The translations under genes and the position numbers were made by a program. Positions 13,428 to 25,928 of a stretch of DNA of 29,205 nt are shown piece after piece. How positions within the stretch are numbered: position 1 is the first letter of the stretch; every line of letters starts with the position of its first letter. The notes beneath the pieces were generated by a model. It was not told where the DNA came from, searched no databases, and saw only the letters and a program-made list of their open reading frames with translations. This DNA is from a virus. Location of the stretch: the IMG/VR virus record IMGVR_UViG_3300000956_000023, positions 1 to 29,205 of that record. One strand, given 5' to 3'.

Positions 13428-13502
13428 CAGGCGTTAGCTCAGTGGTAGAAAGCACGCGTCATGGTGCCGCGCGGTCGGGGCGTTCGATTCCCCCACGCCT
13501 GC
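13428..13502 (+). tRNA. Degenerate tRNA, probably tRNA-Pro(UGG)
   Basis: A cloverleaf can be drawn. The acceptor stem 13428-13434 (CAGGCGT) pairs perfectly with 13495-13501, and pairing extends two more bases outward. The D arm is GCTC-AGTGGTAGA-AAGC and the T arm has the loop TTCGATT. The anticodon stem is CGCG/CGCG around a loop in which positions 34-36 read TGG (Pro-UGG). C1-G72 is also typical of bacterial tRNA-Pro. Defects: C13-A22, T31-C39 and one T-stem mismatch, and A instead of the nearly universal U at position 33. No CCA is encoded. It may be a decaying tRNA. Confidence 0.55.
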
Positions 13503-13529
13503 CGGGACCCAAGCAGAATAGGAGGAACC

Positions 13530-13616: not shown

Positions 13617-14455
13617 TGGCGTGTACCGACTGGCGCGGTGTTGAGGAGCGCATCGAGTGGATGCTGGACCATCCGCCGGGTTCGTCTGGCTGGTGCGCTC
13701 GTGAGACCTGGCAGGCTCTGGGCGGCGACAAGAATCCGCCCTGTCCCCCGGCCTGGGGATGCTCTGATGCCAACGAGGTGTACGACAAGATCAAGCAGAG
13801 CGGTCGCTACTGGACGAGCACGCCCATCCCGCGTGGCGCCGTGATCGCATGGAAGTACGGCAGCAATGGGCACGCGGCCCTGTCTTATGGCAATGGCAAG
13901 ATCTGCACCACGGACCCGAACGGGAACCCTGGCGGAGTCGGAATCGAATCGCTGAGCTACCCCGAGAAGTGGGGAGCCAGTGCCAGTGCGAGAATCTGGA
14001 CTGACCAGTACAATGGCGTCAGATTCGATATCGATGAGGAAGGCGACGAAGTGTCGGATGTGCTGGATTACGATTACCTCGAGAAGCCGAGTGGCACATT
14101 CACTGCCACGCGCGATTACAAGACCTTGGACCAGTCGAGCTGGACGCCGCCGCGTGATGGATGGGAAAACACCCTGGTCTATCTGAACATCAAGCCGACC
14201 TTCCGCAGCGGGAAGACCCACGGCGCCATTCGCATTCGCCTCATGCGCGAGAATGGTGACGCTCACGGGTACGACACGATCTCGATCGACGCCGATGACC
14301 TTGACGACGAGGATGGCAACATCCTCAGGCAGTACTTCACCTGGGAGCTCGGCGAAAAGGGAGCAGGGACGAAGATCCAATTGCGCTGTGTCGGCGGCCT
14401 GGAGTCGGCCCTAATCGGAACGCGCTATACATCTAAGGCGGTCGTGGCCGGATAG
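13616..14455 (+). CDS. Endolysin, CHAP-like cysteine peptidase
   Basis: A 279-residue protein with an N-terminal CHAP-like (NlpC/P60 superfamily) domain. Cys27 lies in GWCARETWQAL, and His86 in GAVIAWKYGSNGHAALSYG with Asp100 (ICTTDP) as a plausible third residue. The spacing and the PRGAVIAW strand before the His match that family, which cleaves amide bonds in peptidoglycan. Residues about 150-279 form an acidic, beta-rich domain of unknown type, presumably the cell-wall binding part. There is no signal peptide, so export should depend on a holin. Start ATG is coupled to the 28-residue peptide. Confidence 0.78.
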   Translation: MACTDWRGVEERIEWMLDHPPGSSGWCARETWQALGGDKNPPCPPAWGCSDANEVYDKIKQSGRYWTSTPIPRGAVIAWKYGSNGHAALSYGNGKICTTDPNGNPGGVGIESLSYPEKWGASASARIWTDQYNGVRFDIDEEGDEVSDVLDYDYLEKPSGTFTATRDYKTLDQSSWTPPRDGWENTLVYLNIKPTFRSGKTHGAIRIRLMRENGDAHGYDTISIDADDLDDEDGNILRQYFTWELGEKGAGTKIQLRCVGGLESALIGTRYTSKAVVAG

Positions 14456-16228: not shown

Positions 16229-16280
16229 GCCTAGCACAACCCTAGGCAAGCCCCCTGGCAGACCGCCAGGGGGCTTTCTC
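16229..16280 (+). terminator. Tandem-hairpin Rho-independent terminator
   Basis: The main hairpin pairs 16250-16259 (GCCCCCTGGC) with 16265-16274 around AGACC and is followed by TTTCTC. Just upstream, GCCTAG (16229-16234) pairs with CTAGGC (16242-16247). It closes the transcription unit of the preceding gene, and promoter P16313 begins about 10 nt later. Confidence 0.85.
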
Positions 16281-16288
16281 GTGCATCC

Positions 16289-16318
16289 CGTGCGTCCCTC
16301 CGCCAGGTCGGGTATGGT
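16289..16318 (+). promoter_or_regulatory. Promoter P16313 of the nucleotide cassette
   Basis: CGTGCG (16289-16294), 18 bp, TATGGT (16313-16318). The spacer region shares TGCGTCCCTCCGCC (16291-16304) with GGCGTTCCTCCGCC at 24343-24356, which marks both as members of one family. The leader is about 60 nt and ends in the start-associated sequence GAGAGGACCACCACC (16370-16384). Confidence 0.65.
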
Positions 16319-16384: not shown

Positions 16385-16804
16385 TTGACCAGACCCTCCT
16401 GGCCAGTACATGCCATGAACCTGGCGGCAGCTGCCGCAGAACGTAGTGAAGACCCCTACTGCCAGGTCGGCGCCACCGTCCTGGATCGGGACGGGGTCGT
16501 TTTGGGCGTTGGCTACAATGGCACGCCCAGTGGCGTGACGGGCGTTGACTGGACCGACCGCGACGCCCGGCGCCCGTACATGATCCACGCCGAAGCGAAC
16601 GCGCTGAGGCACACCACGCCTCCGCTCGCGCACGGTGGCTTGCTGGCGGTCACACACTACCCGTGCGCTGCCTGCTGCACCCTGGCACGGTCCTATGGCA
16701 TCCACACGGTGTTCTGGGCGAGTCCGCCCGACTGGCAGCGCTACCCGAAGCTGGACGAGGCATTCCTGATCCGGCTAGGTGTCGTGTTGTGGCAGGTGCC
16801 GTGA
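16385..16804 (+). CDS. dCMP deaminase
   Basis: A 139-residue zinc deaminase converting dCMP to dUMP. His68-Ala69-Glu70 (MIHAEANAL) and Cys94-x-x-Cys97 (YPCAACC) are the zinc and catalytic motif of the cytidine/deoxycytidylate deaminase superfamily. GVGYNGTPSGV (about 40-50) is the substrate loop typical of dCMP deaminases. The start is a TTG at 16385 placed exactly after the start-associated sequence; ATG 16415 is the alternative. It heads a coupled chain of five nucleotide-metabolism genes. If the downstream enzyme acts on dCMP, this one would compete with it for substrate. Confidence 0.9.
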   Translation: MTRPSWPVHAMNLAAAAAERSEDPYCQVGATVLDRDGVVLGVGYNGTPSGVTGVDWTDRDARRPYMIHAEANALRHTTPPLAHGGLLAVTHYPCAACCTLARSYGIHTVFWASPPDWQRYPKLDEAFLIRLGVVLWQVP

Positions 16805-16986
16805 TGGCCTACGTCCCTCGCCGACTCCGCAAGCGCGCGGCCACCTCTCAGTGGCTGCTGAAGGTGCCACCGCCGTTGACCGCCGAACAGGCCGAACAGA
16901 TCAAACGTCAGTGGCTGGCCAATTTCGGCCGGGGCAGTACTGCCATGGTCGTGCCGAATACGATGCCGGTAATGAGGGTCAAGTGA
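16804..16986 (+). CDS. Small basic protein, unknown
   Basis: A 60-residue protein with ATG 16804 overlapping the deaminase stop (TGATG) and its own stop overlapping the next GTG. It begins MAYVPRRLRKRAATSQWLLKV, then LTAEQAEQIKRQWLANFG (a helix) and a short hydrophobic end. It is very basic and may bind nucleic acid or one of the neighbouring enzymes. No family recognised. Confidence 0.68.
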   Translation: MAYVPRRLRKRAATSQWLLKVPPPLTAEQAEQIKRQWLANFGRGSTAMVVPNTMPVMRVK

Positions 16987-17369
16987 GAATCGAAGAATGG
17001 CCAGCGCCCACCATGGCCACCTGGCTAGCGAGGACGCGCGAGCTGCAGCGCGATTACTTCGGCGGCGACCCCGCCGAATTGCCCCCGGACGAGAAGGTCG
17101 CATTCGTGCGCAACATGGTCCTGGGCCTGATGGTCGAAGCGACCGAGGTGCTCGGTGTGGTCAAGAACTGGAAGTGGTGGCGCACGAGCGCGGTCGCATT
17201 CGACCGGGCGGAATACCTTGAGGAGCTGGTGGATGTGGTCCATTTCGCGGGTGCCTTGGCCGTGATGGCCGGCATTACCGATCAAGAATGGCAGGAGGCA
17301 TATGCACGAAAGACCGAGGTTGTGAAGCTGCGTGCCAGGGCCAAGGCCGAGGCAGGTGCAGCGCAGTGA
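16983..17369 (+). CDS. MazG/dUTPase-like nucleotide pyrophosphohydrolase
   Basis: A 128-residue all-alpha NTP pyrophosphohydrolase. FVRNMVLGLMVEATEVL is followed by KNWKWWR, then YLEELVDVVHFAGALAVMAGI: the E-x2-E ... E-x2-D pattern that binds Mg2+ in dimeric dUTPases, dCTPases and MazG. It removes a dNTP, producing dNMP for the next enzymes. Whether it prefers dUTP or dCTP cannot be read. In a cytosine-modifying phage the expected activity would be dCTP removal, as by T4 gp56. Start GTG 16983 overlaps the previous stop. Confidence 0.82.
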   Translation: MRIEEWPAPTMATWLARTRELQRDYFGGDPAELPPDEKVAFVRNMVLGLMVEATEVLGVVKNWKWWRTSAVAFDRAEYLEELVDVVHFAGALAVMAGITDQEWQEAYARKTEVVKLRARAKAEAGAAQ

Positions 17370-17872
17370 TCGTCATGTTTGAGGGCACGGACGGGGTCGG
17401 CAAGACGCGCACGGCCAAGTGGACTGCGCGGCTTTTACGGGCGCCGTTGGTGCACTACGGGCCTCCGCCCGAGGACCCAGACCCGTTGGAGATCTACGTG
17501 TCGCCAGTGTTCGAGCTCTTAGGTGAGTACGACCATGTGGTGCTGGACAGGAGTCCGTTTGGTGCCACGATCTGGGCGCAGCTCGGGTGCCATCCACCTA
17601 CCATGAACGAGGACTTCCATGGCTCGCTGTGCCGTTTCTTCGCCGTCTGGGACGGCTGGATGAACGTGCTGGTGCGGCCCGAGGCCGCGATCATGGCCGA
17701 GCTCGCCAGGCGCCGGGAGTCATCGCCCGTGACCCTCGAGGATTCGCTACGCGCCCAGGACCTGTACATTGACCTGGTGCTGGATCGCTCGATCCTGTTC
17801 GTGCCCGTGGCGCTCTTCACCAGCAGCTATTACCATCGATTGATCGGAGAGGTGCCACCACAATGGAAATGA
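17366..17872 (+). CDS. Deoxynucleoside monophosphate kinase (thymidylate kinase-like)
   Basis: A 168-residue P-loop kinase with GTDGVGKT at residues 7-14 from GTG 17366, which overlaps the previous stop. HVVLDRSPFGATIWAQL supplies the D-R-S motif of thymidylate-kinase-like NMP kinases. It would phosphorylate the dNMP made by the next gene product to the diphosphate. The 3' end overlaps the next gene by 10 nt, and the start-associated sequence of that gene lies inside this coding region. The length (usually just over 200 for TMK) indicates a compact phage form. Confidence 0.82.
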   Translation: MIVMFEGTDGVGKTRTAKWTARLLRAPLVHYGPPPEDPDPLEIYVSPVFELLGEYDHVVLDRSPFGATIWAQLGCHPPTMNEDFHGSLCRFFAVWDGWMNVLVRPEAAIMAELARRRESSPVTLEDSLRAQDLYIDLVLDRSILFVPVALFTSSYYHRLIGEVPPQWK

Positions 17873-18690
17873 ACCTGCTGACCCCGGCGGAGGCCGTCTA
17901 CTGGGGAACGCGCATTACGATGCAGCACGGGCGCGTGCGAACGTCTCGCGGGATGGAGCATCTGGAGATCCAGAATGCCACCTTCCACATTCGCTTCCCG
18001 CACCTGAATCCCCTGGATGCGCCAGGACGGAATGCGAAGCCTGCCATTGGTGCCCTCGAGGCGGTGCAGCTCGTGGGGCAGCTGTCGCATCCAGAGTCGG
18101 TGACGCGCCGAGTGGCAGCGTTCAAGCCGTACCTGGATGACGGCATCTTCTGGGGAGCCTACGGCACTCGGGTGGTCAGCCAGCTATCGCGCGCTGAGCG
18201 TCTGCTCCGCCAGGACCCTGGCACGCGTCAGGCCGTGGTGAGCATCTACGATGGGCAGCGCGACCTGCTGGCACAGGCCCGAGACGTGCCGTGCACCCTC
18301 ACCCTGCAGTTCCTGTGGGAGGCGCCTATGGTCTTGGGCCTACGGGCGTCCATGCGCAGCAACGACGCGTTTTTGGGCCTTCCCTACGACCTGTTCCAGT
18401 TCACTGCCCTGCAGTGCGCCATGGCTGACGCGCTAGGCGCCCGAGCTGGAGCCTACGTCCACACGGTCGGGTCGCTCCACCTCTACCTACGGGACCGCGA
18501 GGCGGCAGAGCGTATCACGTTCCCTGGTGAGCCGTTGACTCACGAGACTGAGTACGTGCGTAAGTGGAATGGCGACACCATCGGCGTCATAAGCGAGCGT
18601 GCCCGCGATCTGCTGTTCGGATATGCGCTGGCTGAGCCAACAGAGTTCGAGCAATATCTGCAACATTCACTCGAGAGGATCACCACATGA
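17863..18690 (+). CDS. Thymidylate-synthase-fold enzyme, candidate dCMP hydroxymethylase
   Basis: A 275-residue enzyme of the thymidylate synthase fold. Aligned by eye with E. coli ThyA, the nucleophile is Cys144 (DVPCTLTLQF; ThyA Cys146). RSNDAFLGLPYD matches the phosphate and pyrimidine-binding segment, and GSLHLY supplies His206 and Tyr208 (ThyA His207, Tyr209). The residue equal to Asn177 of ThyA, which reads the O4/N3 side of dUMP, is Asp176 here. Asp at this position is the hallmark of dCMP hydroxymethylases (T4 gp42, Asp179) and switches thymidylate synthase toward dCMP in mutants. I infer dCMP as substrate. A variant thymidylate synthase is the alternative. A degenerate start-associated sequence (17846-17862) precedes the ATG. 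Confidence 0.78.
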   Translation: MEMNLLTPAEAVYWGTRITMQHGRVRTSRGMEHLEIQNATFHIRFPHLNPLDAPGRNAKPAIGALEAVQLVGQLSHPESVTRRVAAFKPYLDDGIFWGAYGTRVVSQLSRAERLLRQDPGTRQAVVSIYDGQRDLLAQARDVPCTLTLQFLWEAPMVLGLRASMRSNDAFLGLPYDLFQFTALQCAMADALGARAGAYVHTVGSLHLYLRDREAAERITFPGEPLTHETEYVRKWNGDTIGVISERARDLLFGYALAEPTEFEQYLQHSLERITT

Positions 18691-19034
18691 TGAAAGCATT
18701 CGAGTACCGGCCGCTAATCTGTCGCGGCATCGATGAATGTGGAAACGGGCGGACCATCTCGGTATTCTCGAGAAGGAAGACCCTGAATCCATGCCTCGCC
18801 ATTATCACGTGCCATCGGAAGCACACCGTTCCGGCGTACATTCTTCACCGATATCCGACCATCACACACGTCCTGGCGACAAGCTCGGACGGCCAATCCC
18901 TGCTGCTGGATGCGACTCGGCGCGGTGAGATCCATTTGGGGACGAATATCAACGCTGATGCGCCGAATCGATTCGACGGCAACTACTACTGGCTGCCAGA
19001 GGCATACGACAAGCCGTTTGGGGTGAAGCTATGA
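18687..19034 (+). CDS. Unknown 115-aa protein
   Basis: Starts at ATG 18687 directly after a start-associated sequence (GAGAGGATCACCAC, 18673-18686) that lies inside the end of the preceding gene; a second in-frame ATG follows at 18690. The protein has mixed strands (CLAIITCHRKHTVPAYILH, ITHVLATSSDGQSLLLDA) and ends GNYYWLPEAYDKPFGVKL. No enzymatic motif is visible. It sits between the nucleotide genes and the nuclease and may belong to either. Confidence 0.75.
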   Translation: MMKAFEYRPLICRGIDECGNGRTISVFSRRKTLNPCLAIITCHRKHTVPAYILHRYPTITHVLATSSDGQSLLLDATRRGEIHLGTNINADAPNRFDGNYYWLPEAYDKPFGVKL

Positions 19035-19816
19035 GCGACCGCTACCTGACCGCCACCAGGCCTTCCACCGTGGCCAACGCGTTGGACGACAAGTCCGGCC
19101 TGATGCCTTACGTGGCGTCCAGCACCCTTCGCACGATCGCGGCGCACCCAGACCTGATGACGAGGCTGTCCCTGGTCCGTGGCGAAGGCTGGAAGGACTA
19201 CCGCCCGTTGTACGACGAGGCCGAGGCGCGTGGTGGCAAGCGCGAGGCCAGCGATGGCACGAACATCCACATGGTCGTCGAGGCCCTGCATCACGGCATG
19301 AACGTGAACGCCGTGCCGGAGCCTGCCCGCAGCGACGGTCAGGCCGTGTTTGACGCCATCGCCGCGCTAGGCTATCGCATCGTTGAGGCCGAGCTGTTCG
19401 TGGTCACCCAGGGCCTTCCTGAGCTCTGCGCAGGCACCCTGGACCTGCTGCTGGCCGACCAGCACGGGCGCCTGTTGATCGGGGACACCAAGAGCGTCAA
19501 CGCCATCGAGGACGGGCGCTACGCCGGGATTCGTTGGGCGATCCAGACCGCGATCTACAATCACGGAAAGCCCTACGCCGGGCCGCTGCCGCCCGACCGA
19601 GACCGTTGGGGACGCCCGAAGGTGTACCCCGACCGGGTCACCGACTGGCCGGGCCGCCTGGACAGCTCGCGCGCGCTGATCCTGCAGGTCGAACGCGGAA
19701 AACGGAACGTGGTGCCGAGCATGGTGGACACGCGCCAGGGATGGGACTTGGCCAGGGCCGCATGCGAGGTTCGGAAGATCCGCAAGACACAGGCGTCGTT
19801 GGTGACGAACGCATGA
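19031..19816 (+). CDS. RecB/Cas4-like PD-(D/E)xK nuclease
   Basis: A 261-residue nuclease. ELFVVTQGLPELCAGTLDLLL carries the catalytic Asp in GTLD, followed after a short loop by LLIGDTKS, the D-x-K half of the PD-(D/E)xK motif, and IRWAIQTAIYNHG, a helix equal to the QxxxY motif of RecB-family nucleases. Such phage proteins usually act as 5'-3' exonucleases in recombination or in degrading host DNA. The neighbour at 20336 looks like a single-strand binding protein, which fits an annealing-type recombination pair. ATGA coupling on both sides. Confidence 0.83.
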   Translation: MSDRYLTATRPSTVANALDDKSGLMPYVASSTLRTIAAHPDLMTRLSLVRGEGWKDYRPLYDEAEARGGKREASDGTNIHMVVEALHHGMNVNAVPEPARSDGQAVFDAIAALGYRIVEAELFVVTQGLPELCAGTLDLLLADQHGRLLIGDTKSVNAIEDGRYAGIRWAIQTAIYNHGKPYAGPLPPDRDRWGRPKVYPDRVTDWPGRLDSSRALILQVERGKRNVVPSMVDTRQGWDLARAACEVRKIRKTQASLVTNA

Positions 19817-20019
19817 GCAGCGACGGCGTGACCTGGCTGTTCGTGTCGCCGGAGGGCAAGGCGCACGCAGTGTATGCCGCGAACCTGTCACCTACAATGC
19901 TCCGGGGACGGCGGATGCTCGCGGCCTGTGGGCAATACAGCGATAACTGGATAGCGGGTGATATCACTCTGACGAATCAGTGTCGCACGTGCGTCAAGAT
20001 ACTGAATGCCAGGGCATGA
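19813..20019 (+). CDS. Small zinc-binding protein
   Basis: A 68-residue protein, ATG 19813 overlapping the nuclease stop. After a short strand region (GVTWLFVSPEGKAHAVY) it has Cys in LAACGQ and a CRTC pair near the C terminus, with a possible His earlier: the arrangement of small actinophage proteins with a degenerate H...C...CxxC zinc site. Unknown function. Confidence 0.72.
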   Translation: MSSDGVTWLFVSPEGKAHAVYAANLSPTMLRGRRMLAACGQYSDNWIAGDITLTNQCRTCVKILNARA

Positions 20020-20339
20020 GCACGCGTGCACTGAAGGCCCATCGCGAAGCGGCCCTGGCGGTGCTGTCCGCCATCGGCCCGAATGAGAGCCTCGAAGAGC
20101 TGGCCGCACGTGTGGCGAGCGCGGTTGTCGAGGCAGAGGACAAGACCACCTGGATTGTGATCGTGGATGCCGGGCCGAGGAATGTGCCCATCGTCTACGG
20201 CCCATATTCATCAGCAAACGTGGCGCGGCGCTCGATTGAATCCGGGCTGATGCTGAATGGACCCAGGGGACGGATGTTAGTGGCCATGAGGCCGGTACCC
20301 AGGAAGGGTGCCACCACCAATAGGAAGGTAGAGAAATGA
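20016..20339 (+). CDS. Unknown 107-aa protein
   Basis: ATG 20016 overlaps the previous stop and the end overlaps the next start. Residues 1-45 are helical (KAHREAALAVLSAIGP, then EELAARVASAVVEAED). The second half has WIVIVDAG and VPIVYGPYSSANVARRSIESG, a small alpha/beta unit. No family recognised. The coupled position between nuclease and ssDNA-binding candidate suggests a recombination or replication accessory role. Confidence 0.72.
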   Translation: MSTRALKAHREAALAVLSAIGPNESLEELAARVASAVVEAEDKTTWIVIVDAGPRNVPIVYGPYSSANVARRSIESGLMLNGPRGRMLVAMRPVPRKGATTNRKVEK

Positions 20340-20836
20340 GTTCAGGGAACGACATTCTGGGTCAGACCGGGCGCCCGTGGGCAAAGTGGCCTACGATCGG
20401 CACTGAGGTTCGCGGTCGGGTGCTGGAAGAGCCGTCGTTGCGCCAGAGCCGCGACTACGAATCTGGCGACATGATGACCTGGCCGAACGGTGACCCGAAG
20501 ATGGAGATTGTGGTGGCACTGGCCACCGAGCTCCGCGACAGCGAGATTGACAACGACAACGGCGAGCGTGCCCTGGTGCTACCCGTCGGGTCGAACAGGT
20601 TCCGCGCGGTGCAGAAGGCCATGCGGGATGGTGGCAGCAAGGGTCTGTACCCTGGCGACACCATCGCGGTCAAGTACGTGGCCGATGGCCCTCGGGACCC
20701 CGCGCGGCCGCGCCTGAACCCGCCGAAGGAGTTCGTGGCGGAGTACACGAGGGCCAACGGCAGCGCCACCCAGAAGGCCCTGGACGCGCTGGCAGGTCTC
20801 GGCGGTCGGGTGGTCGAGGACAAGCCGGGATTCTAG
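20336..20836 (+). CDS. Probable ssDNA-binding (OB-fold) protein
   Basis: A 166-residue protein beginning GNDILGQTGRPWAKW. GTEVRGRVLEEPSLRQSRDYESG followed by TWPNGDPKMEIVVALATEL is a pattern of five short strands as in OB folds, and is common to actinophage proteins annotated as ssDNA-binding. A helix follows (NRFRAVQKAMRDG), then GDTIAVKYVADGPRD. The acidic tip expected of bacterial SSB is not evident; the end is VVEDKPGF. It is the last gene before the hairpin at 20853 and lies just upstream of the primase-helicase. Confidence 0.68.
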   Translation: MSSGNDILGQTGRPWAKWPTIGTEVRGRVLEEPSLRQSRDYESGDMMTWPNGDPKMEIVVALATELRDSEIDNDNGERALVLPVGSNRFRAVQKAMRDGGSKGLYPGDTIAVKYVADGPRDPARPRLNPPKEFVAEYTRANGSATQKALDALAGLGGRVVEDKPGF

Positions 20837-20852
20837 GAATCCACACAGGAGC

Positions 20853-20901
20853 GGCCCTGGCAGGGGAGAGGACCACCACAGTCTTTGACCCTGCCAGGGC
20901 C
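20853..20901 (+). terminator. 13-bp hairpin with a start-associated sequence in its loop
   Basis: 20853-20865 (GGCCCTGGCAGGG) pairs perfectly with 20889-20901. The 23-nt loop contains GAGAGGACCACCACA (20866-20880), the start-associated sequence found before many genes, followed by GTCTTTGA with no start codon at the expected place. No good T-run follows, so a pure terminator role is doubtful. The remaining part of the 148-nt gap up to 20984 has a repeated AGAGCCGT (near 20945 and 20973) and no convincing gene. Confidence 0.8.
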
Positions 20902-20984
20902 AGCTGTTTGCCATTCTGCCACAGGCTCGCTTGTTACGCCAGGCTAGAGCCGTCATGCCTTCCCCTCGAGAATAGAGCCGTGCG

Positions 20985-23201
20985 GTGATAGATGATGCCC
21001 AGAATGTAATGCCTCTCCATCCGATGACATTAGCGCTGAGCTGGCTGCAGCGTGGCGTCCCGGCCTTTCCTGTTGAGATATTCATGCAAGATGGCAGGCT
21101 GCAGAAGCGTCCAGCTACGGCACATAGCCACCATGATGCTTCGCTGGACCCGGACGTGGTGCGGGACATGTTCGTGCAGGCCCAGATGCGCCACGGCGGT
21201 GTGCTGGCCGTGGGCTTGCTTCCGGGCGCGGGCAATCTGATCGTGCTGGACCCGGATGTCAAGACGGACGACCGGGACGGGGTCAGGTTCGCGGACTCGC
21301 TAGGCATCCCGTTTGGCTGGCTGGTGTTCACACCTAGCGGAGGCCAGCACAGGTATTTCTGCAAGCCCGATCCCCTGGCGCGCTATTCGAACAAGGTACC
21401 TCCTGCCTGGAACGGCTTCATCGACATCCGCGTGGATCACGGTTGGGTGGTCGCGCCCGGCACGGTGACGCCGTGGGGCAGCTGGCGCGCCGAGGCTCCA
21501 TGGCCCGACCAGGGACCGCCCAGAGCGCCACAGGCCGTCCTGGAGGCCCTGACCTATGGTGCGGGCCAGTCTGGTGCCACAGGGACGCCTGGCGGGCGTC
21601 TGACGCCGGACAGAGAGGCCCTGCTGCCCGAGCACACGCTGGCAGTGCTCCACTGGCTGGAGACCAATCACGGCGCCCACAACCCATTGCTCATGATGCG
21701 CGCGGGCGACGTGAACTACGTGGCGGTGACGCGTCCTGGCAAGCGTGTCGGGATCTCAGCAACGATCGGGTTCGCGGACACGGGCGCGCTGCACCTGTAT
21801 TCCAGCTCGTGGGTCATTGAGGGCGTGGAACAGGCCGTCACGTGCTACCCGTTGGGCCGCGACACGGACACGCTCGGTGCCAGGGCAGCGGTCGCCGCTG
21901 CCACGCCCGTGCCCGCTGGTCCATTCTTTGTCCGTGGCTCGTTCCAGGTGCAGACCATGGCAGCGGCTGTCATGAGCGACATCCCCTTGGCACTGGACCG
22001 CACCGACGGCGGGCTATGGTATTATCGGGACGGGGTCTGGCGCCCGATGCTGGCAGGCGATGACGTGGTGTTGGCTGGAGTCACTGGCAGGCTCGGTGAG
22101 CGATTCCGCACGAGCCATTACAATAACGTCCGGGAATACATTCGCGGTCAGGCACCCACCATCCGCCCTAGCGACCCGAATCCACGCTACGTGAATACTC
22201 CGGGCGGGATGCTGGAGTGGCGCACGGGGGAGCTCTGCGGGCATGCACCAGAGTTCCAGTCAGTGAATCAGATCACAGCTCGTTGGGAGCCTGGTGCGCG
22301 CTGTCCTGCCTTCGACGCCTGGATCGCTGAGGTGCTGCCGGGCGACCTGGTGGGCCAGTGGCTGGACGAGCTGCTCGGTTATTTGGTGCTGTCCGGGAAT
22401 CCGTTCCAGAAAGCCATCCTCCTGCTCGGACGCGGGCGTAACGGTAAGGGCACATTCATCCGCGTGGTGCAGGCGCTGCTAGGCGACGAGAACTATTCAA
22501 ACGTGACGCTGCAGGGCCTGGTCGGCAACCGCTTCGGCGCGGCGGACATGTACGGGAAGTTGGCGAATATCTGTGGCGATCTGGATTCGTCGCGGCTCGA
22601 GTCCACCGCCATGTTCAAGATGGTAACGGGCGGCGACACCATTTCGGCAGAGCGGAAGTTCGGCCATGCATTCTCGTTCACGCCTTACGCTGTGCCGTTC
22701 TTCAGCGCGAATGCAGTGTTCGGTACGCCCGACACTTCGGATGGCTACATGAGCCGTTGGGTGATCGTGCCGTTCCCGAACAGCTTCGAGGGTGGCGCCG
22801 ACCGCGCGCTGACTGAGCGGCTCACGACCGAGGCCGAGCTAGCCGGCATTTTGGCCAGGGCAATTCGCGGACTGCGCACCCTGATGCTGCGCAATGACTT
22901 CCAGATGGCAGATTCAGTACGCGCAGCTCGCGAGCAATTCGAGCGCGAGTCCGACCCTATCCGCGCGTTCATCGCGGACTGCACAGGCCCGGGCGGGTAC
23001 GCCACCCGGCACGACTTGTGGACGACATATACGGTGTGGGCAGCGGAAAGTGGCCACGCCGCATTGGCTCGTACAAAGTTCTACGCTCGTCTCGAAGAAA
23101 CGGGCCTGGCGCCCACGGCGCTGCAGGGCGTTCGGGCATTCAAAGGCCGCCACATGACCCAGGAAGCGCATTATGGGTCGTTGGTGCCAAAGGTGCAGTA
23201 G
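20985..23201 (+). CDS. PrimPol-SF3 helicase (D5/P4-like replication protein)
   Basis: A 738-residue two-part replication initiator. The N-terminal primase-polymerase domain (about 1-190) shows LIVLDPDVK with Asp89 and Asp91, and SGGQHRYF with His122, the metal and phosphate-binding motifs of the archaeo-eukaryotic PrimPol family. A D5-type linker follows. The C-terminal SF3 helicase has Walker A GRGRNGKGT at 482-490, then NICGDLDSS, and PFFSANAVFGTPDTSDGYMSRW with sensor and arginine-finger regions. No separate DNA polymerase is seen in the window. Start: GTG 20985; ATG 21009 is possible, and neither has a strong ribosome site. The stop lies inside the large inverted repeat. Confidence 0.9.
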   Translation: MIDDAQNVMPLHPMTLALSWLQRGVPAFPVEIFMQDGRLQKRPATAHSHHDASLDPDVVRDMFVQAQMRHGGVLAVGLLPGAGNLIVLDPDVKTDDRDGVRFADSLGIPFGWLVFTPSGGQHRYFCKPDPLARYSNKVPPAWNGFIDIRVDHGWVVAPGTVTPWGSWRAEAPWPDQGPPRAPQAVLEALTYGAGQSGATGTPGGRLTPDREALLPEHTLAVLHWLETNHGAHNPLLMMRAGDVNYVAVTRPGKRVGISATIGFADTGALHLYSSSWVIEGVEQAVTCYPLGRDTDTLGARAAVAAATPVPAGPFFVRGSFQVQTMAAAVMSDIPLALDRTDGGLWYYRDGVWRPMLAGDDVVLAGVTGRLGERFRTSHYNNVREYIRGQAPTIRPSDPNPRYVNTPGGMLEWRTGELCGHAPEFQSVNQITARWEPGARCPAFDAWIAEVLPGDLVGQWLDELLGYLVLSGNPFQKAILLLGRGRNGKGTFIRVVQALLGDENYSNVTLQGLVGNRFGAADMYGKLANICGDLDSSRLESTAMFKMVTGGDTISAERKFGHAFSFTPYAVPFFSANAVFGTPDTSDGYMSRWVIVPFPNSFEGGADRALTERLTTEAELAGILARAIRGLRTLMLRNDFQMADSVRAAREQFERESDPIRAFIADCTGPGGYATRHDLWTTYTVWAAESGHAALARTKFYARLEETGLAPTALQGVRAFKGRHMTQEAHYGSLVPKVQ

Positions 23202-23458: not shown

Positions 23459-23488
23459 ATGGCGCCGGGACGCCGCGTGTGTTATCAT
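23459..23488 (+). promoter_or_regulatory. Leaderless promoter P23483, class B
   Basis: ATGGCG (23459-23464), 18 bp and TATCAT (23483-23488) preceded by TGT. The spacer region carries GGCGCCGGGACGCC (23461-23474), the exact reverse complement of the element at 24657 and 25876. Two GACTCGCC boxes lie upstream (23429-23436 and 23445-23452). The -10 ends 6 nt before ATG 23495, so transcription should start at or next to the A of ATG. The 167 nt before it (from 23329) hold no gene; a small GGCGT/ACGCC palindrome is at 23329-23342. Confidence 0.78.
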
Positions 23489-24256: not shown

Positions 24257-24274
24257 GCGGGCAGGGCAGAGCTG

Positions 24275-24304
24275 GAGGGGCATCCGAGAGGGTGCCCCTC
24301 TTTT
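24275..24304 (+). terminator. Rho-independent terminator
   Basis: GAGGGGCA (24275-24282) pairs with TGCCCCTC (24293-24300) and TTTT follows directly (24301-24304). It separates the zinc-finger gene from promoter P24365. Confidence 0.85.
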
Positions 24305-24370: not shown

Positions 24371-24416
24371 GAGGTCAAGACGTTAAGACCGACTCCCACC
24401 CGAGAGGACCACCACA

Positions 24417-25218: not shown

Positions 25219-25260
25219 GGCGTCCCAGATGCGGCCCTGGGACGCCTGGTACGGTAGGAT
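25219..25260 (+). promoter_or_regulatory. Promoter P25255 with 10-bp inverted repeat
   Basis: GCGGCC (25231-25236), 18 bp, TAGGAT (25255-25260). A perfect 10-bp inverted repeat, GGCGTCCCAG (25219-25228) and CTGGGACGCC (25237-25246), flanks the -35, which is exactly in the 8-nt loop region; the arms contain the GGCGTCCC / GGGACGCC half-sites found in other promoters. One GACTCGCC box is at 25210-25217. It could serve as upstream terminator, operator, or both. The leader ends in GAGAGGACACCAC (25283-25295). Confidence 0.72.
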
Positions 25261-25844: not shown

Positions 25845-25873
25845 GTCGAGACCGGGCGCCAGGGCACCCCGAT

Positions 25874-25928
25874 TTGGCGTCCCGGCGCCCGGTCTGTCAT
25901 ACTGATCTTACGGCTCCCGCCGGGAGCC
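25874..25928 (+). promoter_or_regulatory. Promoter P25898, class A, with leader hairpin
   Basis: TTGGCG (25874-25879), 18 bp, TGT and CATACT (25898-25903), preceded by CCCCGA. The element GGCGTCCCGGCGCC is at 25876-25889. Near the predicted transcript start a 7-bp hairpin forms between GGCTCCC (25912-25918) and GGGAGCC (25922-25928) with a 3-nt loop. The start-associated sequence GAGAGGACCACCACC (25935-25949) then abuts ATG 25950. A 5'-terminal hairpin would protect the mRNA. Confidence 0.82.

Follow-up and report, generated by a model that had tools for sequence, protein, structure and literature searches.

The perfect hairpin at 20853-20901 of this phage is probably, at a likelihood of about 70%, a GC-rich, U-poor terminator, itself probably partial, or an mRNA 3'-end hairpin, and the start-associated sequence (SAS) inside it a captured stray start. 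The window, by which we mean the whole 29,205-base virus record that was analysed (63.8% G+C), carries structural, nucleotide-metabolism and replication genes. Among actinobacteriophages the position of the hairpin is conserved and its sequence is not, and we consider it most likely that the hairpin is a largely ordinary member of a terminator type that recurs at this position. A striking oddity would then come down to a hairpin of the terminator type that holds a stray ribosome-binding sequence.

An earlier note on this DNA had described a perfect 13-bp stem around a 23-nt interval, and exactly such an inverted repeat is present (Table 1). It exceeds every other perfect inverted repeat in the window in length (loops of 3-40 nt), and 10 dinucleotide shuffles of the window contained none of at least 13 bp. 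The RNA is predicted to fold into a stable GC-rich stem-loop (-45.7 kcal/mol, z -6.7). The note had also seen the motif as presented in the loop; the motif does lie in the interval, but the interval is not an open 23-nt loop. In the sense RNA, the stem continues beyond a GA/GA internal loop as an inner helix of the SAS core GAGGAC with GUCUUU, which leaves only CACCACA unpaired as a 7-nt loop, and the partition-function values are concordant with this fold. Reverse-complemented, the 5' half of the hairpin agrees with the 3' half at 17 of 21 nt. Template switching is a known one-step route to perfect hairpins (PMC8794818) and would be one possible origin of this one.

Table 1. Features in and around the hairpin (window coordinates)
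Feature	Position	Strand	Remarks
Promoter-like element heading the operon that ends at the hairpin	16289..16318	+	24.0 bits, leave-one-out 9.6
phrog_1911 gene, last of the apparent operon	20336..20836	+	phrog_1911, E 8e-36
Left arm of the 13-bp stem	20853..20865	+	
Orphan SAS copy (SD core and C/A-rich spacer)	20866..20880	+	
Paired SAS core	20868-20873	+	RNA fold
Apical loop	20874-20880	+	RNA fold
GTCTTTGA, with GTC at the start-codon place	20881..20888	+	Partner of the SAS core (GTCTTT); second side of the internal loop (GA)
Right arm of the 13-bp stem	20889..20901	+	
Non-coding spacer before the primase gene	20902..20984	+	Without SAS, without promoter-like element
Prim-Pol/D5-type primase-helicase	20985..23201	+	Pfam PF09250, PF08706, PF19263

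The surroundings of the hairpin appear to be those of an operon end. It begins 16 nt past the stop codon at 20836, within the roughly 50 nt that apply to U-less terminators, and it closes a run of overlapping or abutting ORFs (16385-20836) that include a dCMP deaminase, a dUTPase-like protein, a thymidylate synthase and an exonuclease. The run is itself preceded by a hairpin at 16248 and by the promoter-like element at 16289. PHROGs assigns no function to phrog_1911, the family of the last gene in the run. The structural model of its product (mean pLDDT 88.2) has SSB-type OB folds as its best PDB matches, all of them weak (best E 0.011, none below 0.001), and weakly suggests a predicted OB-fold, SSB-like protein. 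Directly 3' of the stem, the U-tract of a canonical intrinsic terminator is absent and AGCTGTTTGCC is found instead; a terminator scan of the window did not include this hairpin among its predictions, and no Rfam match at gathering score was obtained anywhere in the window. ARAGORN places a tRNA-Thr (GGT) gene at 13428-13503, likewise without an Rfam match at that score. With a cut-off of z -2.4 or lower, hairpins follow 7 of the 44 gene ends that we assigned (16228, 20836, 24256, 24611, 25205, 25844 and 26678). The inverted repeats at 25219-25246 and 25849-25895 lie just past stop codons and overlap promoter-like elements. These two repeats may be operators rather than terminators, or both, and if they are operators the number of gene-end terminators falls below seven.

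No close relatives, whether sought by DNA or through single proteins, turned up in phage records, viral contigs or genome contigs; conservation of stem versus loop was examined in distant kin, through a protein alignment search with the upstream gene. Homologues of phrog_1911 occur in phages of Mycobacterium (cluster K and others), Gordonia, Rhodococcus and Arthrobacter. Among viral contigs the search returned 80 loci, 78 of them with enough sequence past the stop, which fall into 31 downstream types. A strong hairpin, defined as at least 12 pairs with z <= -3, starts no more than 30 nt past the homologue's stop in 18 of the 31 types. Under the same thresholds, random positions taken from these loci and the window gave such a hairpin in 7 of 384 cases. 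The other 13 types miss these thresholds, narrowly in L052, L081 and L105 and clearly in, for example, L111, L120 and L128; in the Gordonia phages Jojo24, Reyja and Tarzan there is no gap at all behind the homologue. The stem sequences differ from type to type while the position is kept, so that the check proposed in the earlier note, a conserved loop, turned out negative. Downstream of the homologue there is a primase relative in 15/31 types and NrdH in 8/31. Within the hairpins of the relatives, our set of ribosome-site patterns found no motif in any of the 31 types, and it did find one in the window. Where the ribosome site of the next gene can be assigned in relatives, it lies 3' of the hairpin; the hairpins of Angelica, Milly and Chris, for instance, are followed by the cluster K SAS and the start of nrdH. 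Among these loci, the SAS inside the hairpin is private to this phage, and it is probably what remains of a gene start since lost or displaced.

Mycobacteriophage Adephagia offers a view of transcription at this position. Its gp65 is a phrog_1911 homologue, its gp66 is NrdH, and a 19-pair hairpin fills the gap between the two. According to the accessible part of PMC11373665, early lytic transcripts are more abundant across genes 44-65 and reduced or almost undetectable across genes 66-83, at gene resolution; that part of the paper does not name the gp65-gp66 hairpin, and its main text uses 'terminator' once, for genes 90-91. The drop could also reflect differential decay. The hairpin would then act in RNA processing or 3' stabilisation within one long operon, and would set the ratio of upstream to primase transcripts without terminating. 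The distance between hairpin and next start in the relatives (about 21-59 nt), often too short for a separate promoter, agrees with such a role, which by sequence is indistinguishable from partial termination. Long GC-rich stems just past stop codons are, however, what the available description of mycobacterial terminators contains, namely GC-rich stem-loops that lack poly-U and lie at most 50 bp from the stop (PMC12288462), and we regard a purely processing or stabilising hairpin as possible but unlikely.

The sequence captured in the hairpin belongs to a set. The exact 15-mer GAGAGGACCACCACA at the orphan site has a second exact copy at 24402, there followed by ATG, and with up to three mismatches the window holds 9 matches against 1.1 expected, one of which (23492) is coding sequence overlapping a start. 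The form GAGAGGA[C/T]CACC occurs eight times, always on the + strand and always from 14481 on, and is a near-invariant motif at ribosome sites of the non-structural half, which is the behaviour of a SAS. Seven of the eight copies abut a start codon; the copy at 20866 alone runs into GTC, and on this point the earlier note was right. On base composition, the chance of GAGAGGACCACCACA falling in the 23-nt interval is about 1e-8. With 7 pairs possible between its core and the anti-SD, the SAS reads as an SD followed by a C/A-rich spacer, and the anti-SD duplex of the orphan copy is as strong as those at functional sites. All 15 of 15 positions match, the unpaired bases included. This exceeds what a long-dead relic should keep; the motif may have been captured only recently, or it may be of use.

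Traces of a gene that might once have used this site were sought. The window showed nothing convincingly similar to Adephagia NrdH (best E 0.57), and NrdH was not found in it. An open frame of 35 codons (20881-20985) adjoins the SAS on its 3' side, and its stop overlaps GTG 20985; this is likely chance. In the relatives L052 and L075, a Prim-Pol-like gene appears, in our reading, directly 3' of the hairpin, and the relic could therefore be the primase's own site. Fifteen other contigs carry the same SAS followed by ATG. They were considered as kin sharing the multi-copy system, which was ruled out because each of the 15 has a single GAGAGGA[C/T]CACC copy; one of them, L009, shares structural genes only. 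Elsewhere in the window, the tip of a terminator-like hairpin with a T-rich tail (24272-24300) carries CCGAGAGG, with which the SAS context begins; as a GAGA tetraloop on a CC/GG step it may have arisen by chance.

An exact motif copy without a gene, in a stable fold, could also suggest a discrete RNA decoy that titrates whatever recognises the SAS, an option raised in the earlier note. With the SAS explained as an SD, the target of such a decoy would be ribosomes, which a single RNA would hardly titrate. Its SD core, moreover, is paired in the finished hairpin rather than exposed, the hairpins of the 31 relative types lack the motif, there is no Rfam match, and no promoter-like element lies near it (best -9.5 bits, against 24.0-35.8 bits for the copies described below). 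We give the decoy almost no weight.

A more elaborate scheme would have a 30S subunit or ribosome bind the nascent SAS and block the hairpin, perhaps by starting a 20-codon ORF from the TTG at 20885, so that polymerase reads into the primase gene. If true, the hairpin would be a switch coupling the supply of free ribosomes to phage replication. The exactness of the SAS down to its unpaired bases, the strength of its anti-SD duplex and the absence of a SAS or promoter-like element belonging to the primase gene itself all speak for this scheme. Against it, the motif is in none of the relatives' hairpins, and folding predictions already pair part of the SD core while the 3' arm has yet to be made. 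The TTG is at a long spacing and otherwise unsupported, and a nearby TTG comes cheaply by chance. Overall, we think such gating improbable.

The promoter-like element is a 30-bp sequence on the + strand with eight copies (15525, 16289, 23459, 23746, 24341, 24655, 25231 and 25874). The copies were chosen by eye ahead of scoring and score 24.0-35.8 bits (9.6-30.4 in leave-one-out); a ninth candidate, at 14435, failed leave-one-out (-7.3). Their consensus is roughly [G/T]TGGCG-18 nt-TANNAT, they precede SAS genes, and the exact element was not found in other viral contigs. The copies at 23459 and 24655 end six bases ahead of ATG (23495 and 24691), a spacing that would give leaderless mRNAs. Neither the orphan SAS nor the primase gene has such an element nearby, and the orphan is accordingly not of the ESAS type. 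The primase starts at GTG 20985 or at a later ATG; the SD of GTG 20985 is modest, its anti-SD energy being -6.9 kcal/mol where SAS starts have about -9.6.

Just ahead of the primase gene lie the only two copies in the window of TAGAGCCGT, a direct repeat at 20945 and 20973. Palindromes and this repeat in front of a primase could point to an element acting as DNA, either an operator or part of a replication origin. The two G-U pairs of the inner helix, however, are possible in + strand RNA only (the minus strand, folded as DNA, retains a smaller inner helix), and the stems of the relatives are unrelated in sequence, unlike protein sites. Nor does the hairpin region show a GC-skew switch. An element of this sort is thus very improbable.

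We therefore return to a terminator-type hairpin with a captured start. In the mechanism that we propose, the hairpin would close a nucleotide-metabolism operon ending in the SSB-like phrog_1911 gene and would limit read-through into the primase module. It would have formed over a stray SAS that once served a gene start here. The gene could have been a small one, since lost from between the modules, or the primase itself with an earlier start. Folding would hide the SD core, and for this reason the site would not start translation. Of the three options in the earlier note, the best fit is the terminator with a captured motif, given a hairpin that is stop-proximal and recurrent. A decayed gene start survives as the likely source of the captured motif, with no trace of the lost gene found, and the two options are mutually compatible. 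The hairpin thus offers a testable candidate for how these phages balance the amount of SSB-like protein against that of the primase. Moreover, many actinobacteriophages turn out to have a terminator-like hairpin behind their phrog_1911 gene, at the place where, in the published Adephagia data available, transcripts drop.

Several known systems resemble parts of this arrangement. The U-less ('I-shaped') intrinsic terminators of mycobacteria, as far as described in the accessible part of PMC12288462, share with it a GC-rich stem-loop near a stop codon and the lack of poly-U; the need for a U-tract in mycobacteria is disputed, to judge from titles cited there. In contrast to those terminators, the stem described here carries an SD/SAS, and it is a putative terminator. 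The hairpin after gp65 in cluster K phages (Adephagia, Angelica) is alike in its preceding gene, its distance from the stop, its stem size and the presence of a SAS in the gap. In cluster K, however, that SAS lies 3' of the hairpin and starts nrdH, whereas here it lies inside, and NrdH was not found. The SAS/ESAS systems of cluster K and of Microbacterium cluster EF, in the portions of PMC3203893 and PMC7302621 available, likewise consist of a near-invariant ribosome-site motif at a subset of non-structural genes, and one odd SAS copy without a start, Anaya site 7, is reported there. The promoter-like elements of this phage resemble the SigA-like promoters, with an inverted repeat, that PMC11373665, in its accessible part, describes within ESAS elements. 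The motifs themselves differ: this phage has GAGAGGA[C/T]CACCAC where those systems have GGGATAGGAGCCC and GGGAAAGGACCCC, and GAGAGGACCACCACA does not match the cluster K consensus. Among titles and abstract openings of the open-access papers searched, we found no description of a SAS within a terminator hairpin. An orphan copy inside a terminator-like hairpin sets this phage apart from the cluster K and EF systems, as far as these are described in the accessible sources.
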